Positions 514 to 6,101 of a stretch of 20,110 bases of DNA are shown piece after piece (the stretch's first letter is position 1; each line of letters begins with the position of its first letter). The notes under the pieces were generated by a model. The model was not told the DNA's origin. It made no database searches and saw only the letters and a program-made list of their open reading frames with translations. The translations under genes and the position numbers were made by a program. Source of the DNA: a virus. The stretch is from positions 1-20,110 of the IMG/VR virus record IMGVR_UViG_3300042691_042864; one strand, written 5' to 3'.

Positions 514-777
514 ATGCCTAGTCAAGAAACAAAATGGTATAAAGATGCAAGACTTATACAAGCATTGGACGAGATACGCCAACGCAATCAAGCATTCATG
601 TCATATTGTCATTATTGTGGCGCTAAGTCCATAGATATTAAAGCAGTCAAAGAAAAGCTATATCCTGTTTGCCAAGAACATCAAGATTCAGAAGATCTAT
701 CTGATTGGATGGAAGCATCAAAGGGTAGACATGATATTAATAGATTATTAGAATCTCAATCCTCATTTGAGGAGTAA
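514..777 (+). CDS. small zinc-ribbon-like protein, function unknown
   Basis: An 87-residue protein that I cannot assign to a named family. It has a charged N-terminal helix region (about residues 5-30), then C32-x2-C35 and C53-x2-H56, which together would bind one zinc ion, and an acidic C-terminus. There is no Shine-Dalgarno sequence; the ATG lies six bases after a TATAAT box, so a leaderless mRNA is expected. Its 3' end overlaps the end of a convergent small zinc protein by 22 bases. It sits directly downstream of the DnaA-box cluster, so it could be an early or replication-linked factor (inference). Confidence 0.7.
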   Translation: MPSQETKWYKDARLIQALDEIRQRNQAFMSYCHYCGAKSIDIKAVKEKLYPVCQEHQDSEDLSDWMEASKGRHDINRLLESQSSFEE

Positions 778-965
778 ATTTCAGGGGTATTGGTATAGTC
801 CGTATATGCCTCTTCACATAATGGGCAATAGGAATTAGCTGTTCTACTATTATCCAGACTAATCAGCAATAAGCCTTTATTCTGCATATCCATTACTTCT
901 GTATCTAATCGTCCATGGACTATAGGTATTAATTTAGTCTTACATCTTATACAATTGGTTATCAT
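756..965 (-). CDS. small protein with two CxxC knuckles
   Basis: A 69-residue protein with C5-x2-C8 at the start and C47-x2-C50 near the end, the pattern of a zinc ribbon interrupted by about 38 residues. The family is not recognised. It is the only leftward gene in this part and runs into the tail of the 514 gene. A TATAAT box preceded by TGC (976-981, complement) lies ten bases before its ATG, so the leader would be only a few bases and there is no Shine-Dalgarno site. The two cysteine pairs argue that it is a real gene rather than an antisense open frame. Confidence 0.65.
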   Translation of the reverse strand: MITNCIRCKTKLIPIVHGRLDTEVMDMQNKGLLLISLDNSRTANSYCPLCEEAYTDYTNTPEIYSSNED

Positions 966-1021: not shown

Positions 1022-1050
1022 TTGACAGGATATTGGGGATTTGATATACT
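1022..1050 (+). promoter_or_regulatory. strong promoter for the candidate small RNA
   Basis: TTGACA (1022-1027), 17-base spacer, TATACT (1045-1050) with TGA just before it (extended -10). Six bases further, at about 1057, transcription would begin immediately before the first hairpin (1058-1075). No open reading frame begins near the predicted start. Confidence 0.7.
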
Positions 1051-1056
1051 TATATT

Positions 1057-1180
1057 ACAGTCAAGCGATTGACTGCCTACCCTCCCTTTCTGGGGTAGAA
1101 ATGGTCCCTCCCTTTCTGGGGATCTCCTCCTGAGCATGAGTGATAAAAGGCTCCCTTTCTGTATAAAAAGCTTTATAATA
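1057..1180 (+). ncRNA. candidate structured small RNA with repeated C-rich loops
   Basis: The predicted transcript starts with a perfect 7-bp stem CAGTCAA/TTGACTG (1058-1075) closed by GCGA, a GNRA tetraloop. Two hairpins follow: 1077-1098 (stem CTACCC/GGGTAG) and 1103-1124 (stem GGTCCC/GGGATC). Both have the same loop, TCCCTTTCTG. Their stems differ in sequence but both still pair, one G-U included, which is internal covariation. The loop word occurs a third time at 1152-1161, unpaired or weakly paired. A CTCCTCC run at 1124-1130 and the loops resemble the 16S anti-Shine-Dalgarno tail. The two C-rich-loop hairpins recall the actinobacterial 6C small RNA, whose C-rich loops bind G-rich mRNA sites. 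The 3' end is uncertain; an AT-only hairpin (TATAAA/TTTATA, about 1162-1177) may mark it. Confidence 0.55.
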
Positions 1181-4800: not shown

Positions 4801-4874
4801 GGAACAGTAGCTTAGTTGGTTAGAGCCCCGAACTCATAATTCGGTAGTCGTAGGTTCGAGTCCTACCTGTTCCA
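4801..4874 (+). tRNA. tRNA-Met(CAT) or tRNA-Ile2(CAT)
   Basis: Seven-base acceptor GGAACAG/CTGTTCC with discriminator A. The anticodon stem CCGAA/TTCGG holds loop CTCATAA with anticodon CAT, and the T arm GTAGG/CCTAC carries TTCGAGT. The anticodon stem lacks the three G-C pairs of an initiator. CAT may be elongator Met, or Ile2 if the C is modified to lysidine. No CCA is encoded. Confidence 0.92.
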
Positions 4875-4877
4875 CTT

Positions 4878-4951
4878 GGTCTGTTAGCTCAGTTGGTTAG
4901 AGCGCTACCCTGTCACGGTAGAGGTCGTGGGTTCAAGTCCCATACAGATCG
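4878..4951 (+). tRNA. tRNA-Asp(GTC)
   Basis: Acceptor GGTCTGT/ACAGATC with one G-T pair; anticodon stem CTACC/GGTAG, loop CTGTCAC, anticodon GTC; T arm GTGGG/CCCAT-type with TTCAAGT. Discriminator G is followed directly by CCA in the DNA, so the tail may be encoded. Three bases after the previous tRNA. Confidence 0.93.
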
Positions 4952-4955
4952 CCAA

Positions 4956-5027
4956 GGCTCTATCGTCTAGTGGTTAGGACACCAGGTTTTCAACCTGTAA
5001 ACGAGAGTTCAATTCTCTCTAGAGCTG
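4956..5027 (+). tRNA. tRNA-Glu(TTC)
   Basis: Acceptor GGCTCTA/TAGAGCT (first pair G-T). The D arm reads TCGTCTAGTGGTTAGGA, typical of tRNA-Glu. Anticodon loop TTTTCAA gives TTC; T arm GAGAG-TTCAATT-CTCTC. Discriminator G, no CCA. Decodes GAA, a very common codon in these AT-rich genes. Confidence 0.93.
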
Positions 5028-5028
5028 C

Positions 5029-5100
5029 GCCTCCCTAGCTCAGTGGTAGAGCATCCGCCTTGTAAGCGGAAGGTCGTCAGTTCAATCCTGACGGGGGGCT
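5029..5100 (+). tRNA. tRNA-Thr(TGT)
   Basis: Acceptor GCCTCCC/GGGGGGC (one T-G pair), anticodon stem TCCGC/GCGGA with loop CTTGTAA and anticodon TGT, T arm GTCAG-TTCAATC-CTGAC, discriminator T. It ends one base before the GTG start of the next gene, whose only purine-rich upstream sequence is this acceptor stem. Confidence 0.93.
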
Positions 5101-5101
5101 C

Positions 5102-6025
5102 GTGGCAAAACTATCTTTAAAAGAATTAAGCAAGCGCAATAACTTTTACGTTTTTGCTAAACGTATAGCTATTGGTCAAGGCTTTTATGTTATCAACAAT
5201 GATAAGTTAGTTGTCCTTCATCCTAATATTTTAGAAAATATTATAGATATTCAAGATCTTAATAAGTATAAAATAAATAATTCTATTGTTCTTCCTACAA
5301 TAGATGGCGAGGTAATAAAGTTAAGTAGTTTATATAAAGACTCTGAATTTGCAAATAGAACACAAAATTCTACTGCAAGACAGGATGCAGAAATTTTTAA
5401 TCTTTCACTTATGATGGATACAATTAAAGAACAAACTGAAAAAGATTATGTAACAATTAAAATAATTAATAATGTATATCATGTTAAATCAATTAAAGTT
5501 CTTGGAGATAAATCAAAAGCAGATTTTTGTTTTATGGATTTAGACAATAAAAGAGTTGGATTTGTTTCTCATAAATATGGAACAAGCCCTAAAGATTTTC
5601 AACAATGGTCTGGAACATCTAAAAGATTTCAAAATCTGATAGCAGATCACCCAGAAACTATTTCTTTTATCTCAGACCTTAAAAATTTATTTAAAGATGG
5701 CTGTCCAAGAGCCTCTACCGTTGCTCGTAAAATAATAGATCCAGAGCTAAAGAAAGTGGCAGTTTTTGGAAATGAATTTGGGTTAAAATTTAGTAAGGAT
5801 AATGTAGAGGCAGTTATGCAGGGAGAATTGGCTCTGGAGCCTTCTGGAGAGGGTTTCTTGCTATCTGGATCTCATTACACCATACCCAATGGAGAATTGC
5901 CCCTATATGGCTACGATCCTGTTTTTATGGCGGTACATAAAAAAGATAGGGCAGATCATTGGATACCTAATTGTAGGGTTACCATTAATCCTATTGGAAG
6001 TAGAAAGATTAAGCAGTTTATTTAA
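5102..6025 (+). CDS. conserved phage protein of unknown function, possibly nuclease-like
   Basis: A 307-residue protein starting with GTG one base after tRNA-Thr. I know similar proteins only as uncharacterised phage proteins. Around residues 138-160 a KADF strand is followed by a second strand ending in S-H-K and then an FQQWSG segment. This strand-D/strand-x-K pattern resembles the PD-(D/E)xK nuclease core, but I cannot confirm it. The C-terminal third ends in a conserved-looking stretch (about 270-300) with paired Y-D-P, D-H-W and N-P motifs. The ribosome site can only be the G-run of the tRNA acceptor stem. tRNA genes flank it on both sides, a common place for phage cargo genes. Confidence 0.75.
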   Translation: MAKLSLKELSKRNNFYVFAKRIAIGQGFYVINNDKLVVLHPNILENIIDIQDLNKYKINNSIVLPTIDGEVIKLSSLYKDSEFANRTQNSTARQDAEIFNLSLMMDTIKEQTEKDYVTIKIINNVYHVKSIKVLGDKSKADFCFMDLDNKRVGFVSHKYGTSPKDFQQWSGTSKRFQNLIADHPETISFISDLKNLFKDGCPRASTVARKIIDPELKKVAVFGNEFGLKFSKDNVEAVMQGELALEPSGEGFLLSGSHYTIPNGELPLYGYDPVFMAVHKKDRADHWIPNCRVTINPIGSRKIKQFI

Positions 6026-6028
6026 TAT

Positions 6029-6100
6029 ACCCCTGTAACTCAGAGGAAGAGTAGCGGACTTCTAATCCGTTTGTCGTAGGTTCGAATCCTATCAGGGGTG
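6029..6100 (+). tRNA. tRNA-Arg(TCT)
   Basis: Acceptor ACCCCTG/CAGGGGT, anticodon stem GCGGA/TCCGT-type with loop CTTCTAA and anticodon TCT, T arm GTAGG-TTCGAAT-CCTAT, discriminator G, no CCA. It reads AGA, the main arginine codon of these genes and usually a rare codon in GC-richer hosts. Its last two bases (TG) also form the extended part of the next gene's -10 box. Confidence 0.92.
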
Positions 6101-6101
6101 C

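Follow-up and report, generated by a model that had tools for sequence, protein, structure and literature searches.

B11, a 6C RNA, can repress mRNAs with either of its C-rich loops alone, by pairing with their ribosome-binding sites (RBSs), and its overexpression slows or stops mycobacterial growth (PMC10470900). In phages P1 and P7, the c4 RNA pairs close to the RBS and thereby blocks phage mRNA translation; its complementary stretches are thought to sit in loops, and the target described for it is the ant mRNA (PMC12197685). Our literature search for phage anti-Shine-Dalgarno (anti-SD) RNAs returned nothing relevant. The timing of phage gene expression is usually ascribed to promoters, sigma factors, and anti-terminators. 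Here we analyze a candidate small RNA (sRNA) carried by a viral sequence of 20,110 nucleotides (IMG/VR record IMGVR_UViG_3300042691_042864, positions 1 to 20,110; hereafter, the window), which a preliminary description had proposed to be a relative or an analogue of 6C RNA.

Architecture of the Candidate sRNA

The RNA is predicted to start near position 1057 and to extend over about 1057–1165; like all the elements described in this section, it lies on the plus strand. As previously noted, it is preceded by the promoter TTGACA-N17-TATACT with an extended TG (1022–1050), which matches the consensus at 11 of 12 positions and faces DNA that holds no gene of known kind. Its first element is a 5′ hairpin of 7 bp with a GCGA loop (1058–1075; stem strands 1058–1064 and 1069–1075), followed by two putative anti-RBS hairpins, CTACCC/TCCCTTTCTG/GGGTAG at 1077–1098 and GGTCCC/TCCCTTTCTG/GGGATC at 1103–1124, which share one identical 10-nt loop, UCCCUUUCUG. 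Downstream of them, at 1127–1153, we identified an H-type pseudoknot that the earlier reader had missed, with stem S1 formed by CTC (1127–1129) and GAG (1138–1140) and stem S2 by GAGC (1132–1135) and GCTC (1150–1153). The CTCCTCC at 1124–1130, formerly read as a separate SD-binding element, is mostly one strand of this pseudoknot and is not conserved as such. The third copy of TCCCTTTCTG announced for 1152–1161 is indeed present; it belongs to the single-stranded 3′ tail, however, and comparison with the tails of relatives showed that it is only partly conserved.

No Rfam gene was found in the window at the promoter-RNA stretch at the gathering score, nor did positions 950–1260 match any family up to an E-value of 10. 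We also considered an intrinsic terminator or attenuator and rejected it, as no terminator-like site (a GC hairpin with a U-run directly after it) was found near 1077–1161 and the downstream gene often has a leaderless promoter of its own. The folding energy of the window RNA alone was only mildly more stable than that of shuffled sequences (z = −1.5). Because single-sequence folding energy is weak evidence, we judged the structure on the relatives of the RNA.

A Family of Covarying RNAs in IMG/VR

Pattern scans of IMG/VR retrieved 30 loci, representing 24 distinct members, with the same layout as the window RNA; they constitute a previously undescribed family. Two loop hairpins occur in 21 of the 24 distinct members and a single one in L005, L215, and L030, while locus L236 resembles a further single-hairpin member. 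The loop reads NNCCUUUCUG in all members, with the invariant core CCUUUCUG. A scan keyed on the 3′ part only, and thus blind to the loops, recovered two-hairpin members, every one of which has CCTTTCTGG in each of its two hairpins. The CCTTTCTGG repeat pattern also has many chance matches in coding sequence, which were dropped by demanding the stems and the pseudoknot. A sigma-70-like −35/−10 pair stands in register in 24/24 distinct members, upstream DNA being covered in the members counted. The 5′ hairpin folds in 21/21 two-hairpin members despite its differing sequence and is absent from the single-hairpin ones, so this part of the preliminary description stands as far as the hairpin is concerned, but outside the closest relatives of the window the GNRA tetraloop is not conserved.

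For the covariation analysis we aligned 20 two-hairpin members over four helices (21 pairs) and ran a separate, independent structure prediction. Overall, 97.1% of the helix cells of the 20 aligned members were paired, and 13 of the 21 pairs showed two-sided changes. The covariation score was 0.464, compared to 0.155 in shuffles, none of which (0/500) reached the observed value; slid partners scored at most 0.08. In these 20 sequences, hairpin 1 was paired in 99.2% of its cells, with two-sided changes in four of six pairs, and hairpin 2 in 100%, with two-sided changes in five of six. The claim that the two hairpins combine one loop with stems that differ and still pair is thus supported across the aligned relatives, and what was observed in the window is, at the level of sequence, confirmed as more than chance.

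Outside this group of viruses the searches were negative. Seven members matched no Rfam family up to an E-value of 10, and blastn against the cultured phages of INPHARED found no relative of the RNA. A strict pattern search of 84,980 bacterial and archaeal genomes returned only five stretches, none of them with the family architecture or a promoter, and hence no credible copy, although a more diverged host copy might escape so strict a pattern.

The Loop Core Is Complementary to the RBSs of an Adjoining Gene Block

The preliminary description had suggested that the loop might bind SD sequences. CAGAAAGG is the sequence exactly complementary to the loop core, and in relatives of the window phage the corresponding site class, (C)AGAAAGG, is the RBS of about 13 genes gathered in one block of 10–12 kb adjoining the sRNA, as a scan of these phages revealed. 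In nearly all the sRNA-phage regions that we fetched, CAGAAAGG lies just ahead of several genes on the sRNA strand, a few bases from the ATG. Moreover, no 7-mer is more frequent than AGAAAGG upstream of the ORFs around the sRNA (69/721, against 3.3 expected), and orthology grouping showed that orthologous genes keep it across divergent sRNA phages. In sister phages, which have the same genes and in which no sRNA was found, it precedes only 20 of 947 ORFs, and the orthologues carry CAGAAACGG, CAGAAAAGG, or CGAAAGG, or are leaderless.

The sites are also confined in position. In G014 (107.7 kb), AGAAAGG-N4-11-ATG occurs only at 44.2–54.1 kb, with the sRNA at 57.4 kb; in G005 (101.8 kb), it occurs only at 16.6–28.0 kb, with the sRNA at 30.3 kb. 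Such clustering recurs in four further records, except for matches antisense to the sRNA itself, whereas AAGGAG-N4-11-ATG is scattered over the genomes. The block encodes Gp88 (PF17338), DUF932, an Api92-like protein (DUF1281_C), and small unknown proteins, and by their position in cultured phages these are probably early genes.

All this evidence comes from relatives, as the window contig ends short of the block: the window has no AGAAAGG RBS, its record has about 1 kb of sequence ahead of the sRNA, and the block ends 2–4 kb before the sRNA in relatives, so the targets were presumably cut off. Neither the loop core nor the target varies, which leaves no loop-target covariation. Nor was a compensatory loop found in the fetched stretches, from incomplete contigs, of sister phages with CAGAAACGG or CAGAAAAGG sites. 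In a DUF932 tree, the phages with the sRNA fall essentially into one group, and the association of the sRNA with AGAAAGG sites may therefore represent a single evolutionary event. One further record, G032 (104.6 kb), has, at locus L245, a single CCCCTTTCTGGGG hairpin and a pseudoknot after a gene and no full sRNA; in this record CAGAAAGG occurs only opposite that hairpin, and the MPNW and MARQK orthologues carry CGAAAGG.

Loop Pairing Compared With the 16S rRNA Tail

The 3′ tail of actinobacterial 16S rRNA carries CCUCCUUUCU, the usual tail being CCUUUCU. This CCUUUCU is common to the tail and the loop; the loop differs from the tail by one additional C, which shifts the register, and by a G that follows (CUCC-C-UUUCU-G). 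Computed pairing energies for the loop were −10.0 kcal/mol with CAGAAAGG, −3.3 with AAGGAG, and −4.0 with AGGAGG, whereas the 16S tail gave −7.5 with CAGAAAGG and −9.2 with AGGAGG. The loop thus pairs poorly with AGGAGG and better than 16S rRNA with CAGAAAGG. It had been remarked that the loop resembles the 16S tail with one C inserted; according to these computations, the extra C spoils pairing with AGGAGG and leaves pairing with AGAAAGG complete. In cofolding, the third TCCCTTTCTG copy in the tail of the RNA also pairs with a target RBS.

The base before the site speaks to the same preference. A C precedes AGAAAGG at 40/85 sites, against a base frequency of 18% (p about 1e-9), although it is missing from about half of them; in sister phages, the figure is 7/37. 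Since the G of the loop pairs with this C and the 16S tail would not, the leading C appears to be selected by the loop rather than by 16S rRNA. Together, the pairing energies and the excess of leading C argue that the loop prefers the AGAAAGG class and avoids AAGGAG and AGGAGG. AGAAAGG itself could be a normal SD variant, since the usual 16S tail of actinobacteria can pair with it as well.

These data bear on the alternative that the RNA mimics the 16S tail and blocks mainly the SD-led mRNAs of the host, sparing leaderless phage genes, in which case the phage site matches would be a side effect of sharing the ribosome code of the host. The identity of CCUUUCU with the usual tail and the many leaderless neighbors of the sRNA would suit such a role. 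So would the growth arrest or slowing caused by overexpressed B11 in mycobacteria (PMC10470900). We nevertheless consider it unlikely, given that the loop pairs poorly with canonical AGGAGG and AAGGAG, that AGAAAGG RBSs gather in one phage block with AAGGAG used elsewhere, and that the leading C suits the loop and not 16S rRNA. It is also conceivable that the loops act as a decoy: by resembling the 16S 3′ end, they would sequester a protein with affinity for that end, such as a nuclease or a factor involved in initiation or rRNA processing. A loop that is kept while its stems vary suits a protein ligand equally well, but such a decoy would leave unexplained both the C at the extra position and the marking of a single gene block next to the sRNA by the exact complement, and we rate it as highly improbable.

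Neighboring Genes and Host

Two genes of unknown function upstream of the sRNA are conserved: one of 87 aa (514–777, plus strand), with homologs in about 30 sRNA-phage sequences, and one of 69 aa (756–965, minus strand), with homologs in about 40. Downstream, a −10 box (TATAAT, 1174–1179) is followed 6 nt on by a leaderless 41-aa ORF on the plus strand (1186–1311; MHLHQYITIELENS...), whose homologs directly follow the sRNA in several relatives. ORF lists restricted to products of at least 50 aa had missed it. That the upstream genes and the 41-aa gene have homologs beside the sRNA of relatives places the window phage in the sRNA group.

Leaderless mRNAs are common in actinobacteria. Among the window ORFs, the commonest upstream motif is a −10-like box at leaderless spacing, and in 14/24 members the gene after the sRNA has a leaderless look, with its own −10 box 5–6 nt before the start codon, in agreement with the early impression that genes near the sRNA are often leaderless. 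Its own −10 box suggests that the 41-aa gene does not use the sRNA as a leader. More generally, a small gene close downstream might be expected of a cis-acting leader or attenuator, to which we give almost no credence in view of those 14/24 members, the variation of the downstream genes among members, and the complementarity of the loop to other genes.

The nearest cultured relatives of the block proteins belong overwhelmingly to Mycobacterium and Streptomyces phages, which points to an actinobacterium as the probable host, likely from a low-GC group considering the GC content of 31–37%. Elsewhere, the window holds sugar/glycosylation genes (epimerase, carbamoyltransferase, radical SAM, glycosyltransferases) and five tRNA genes, on the minus strand of 10–20 kb and at 4801–6101.

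A Recurrent 3′ Pseudoknot Module

The pseudoknot that ends the sRNA has the H-type consensus NNUC-[CU-GAGCA-U]-GANN-nnUAAAC-UGCUC (CCUGAGCAUGA..UAAACUGCUC). Its stems S1 and S2 covary inside the sRNA family and also across a set of 39 modules that come from many phage contigs and mostly stand alone. Across the 105 loci fetched, whose selection by the search introduces a bias, we counted 212 matches. The module is repeated many times per genome (L146, L163, L170:310-505, L186, and about 100 other loci), in tandem in L170, and 55 of 69 distinct non-sRNA copies lie within 80 nt after the stop codon of an ORF. Given this position, it is a common 3′-end element of the transcripts of related phages, present in the sRNA too, and we think that it probably serves in termination or in protection from exonucleases. 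An Rfam search of the L170 region that holds it found no family, and a literature search for the pseudoknot string found nothing relevant. Weak matches in INPHARED are apparently due to chance; the one from Aeromonas, which we inspected, lacks the module. In one sister phage, which lacks the sRNA, a promoter-driven RNA (L163:6437-6520) has a UUCG hairpin and the same pseudoknot end but carries no anti-RBS loop; it may be a different sRNA built on the same plan.

Discussion

Our preferred reading, to which we assign a probability of roughly 0.7 from the comparison of sequences, is that the RNA is a trans-acting, RBS-blocking phage sRNA that silences the early-type block of the phage itself. Transcribed from its own strong promoter, the RNA (about 1057–1165) would present CCUUUCUG in two rigid hairpin loops, with a third copy held in the tail. 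Each loop would pair directly with the AGAAAGG or CAGAAAGG RBS of mRNAs from the early-type block, located 2–4 kb from the sRNA and mostly on the same strand. Such pairing would stop 30S binding, with repression rather than activation as the outcome, and the block would be shut down, while the rest of the genome, with its AAGGAG sites or leaderless starts, would be spared. On a broader formulation we are evenly divided: these phages may run two SD codes, with an anti-SD RNA that reads only AGAAAGG acting as a block-wide translational switch and ending in a widespread pseudoknot module.

If this is true, a class-wide translational switch would be encoded in slightly more than 100 nt, with a loop tuned to miss ordinary RBSs and to hit one marked class, and it would offer a handle on early-gene turn-off in actinobacterial phages. 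In addition, phages whose RNAs are hardly annotated gain a new RNA family, together with a recurrent pseudoknot.

Finally, how does this RNA compare with known systems? Among phage RNAs the nearest case is the c4 antisense RNA, although the present RNA would direct two copies of the same loop against many RBSs. As to 6C, the RF01066 covariance model matched neither the window, positions 950–1260 (to an E-value of 10), their own record, nor seven members (to an E-value of 10), and the loop NNCCUUUCUG of all members lacks the run of about six consecutive C by which 6C loops are defined. For these reasons we do not file the RNA as a 6C member, and of the proposed relationship only analogy is left: none of the thresholds reported gave an RF01066 match that would support kinship, but build and presumed mode of action are similar. 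Tandem hairpins with C-rich loops are present in 21/24 distinct members, and by computation these loops are complementary to the RBSs of several mRNAs, as in 6C/B11, where the loop of either of two such hairpins can pair with the RBS (PMC10470900). The differences are that the present RNA is phage-encoded, carries the loop CCUUUCUG instead of a C run, adds a 5′ hairpin and a 3′ pseudoknot, and has next to it a compact gene block that shares one RBS class. By analogy, 6C/B11 is thus the closest working model for this phage RNA.
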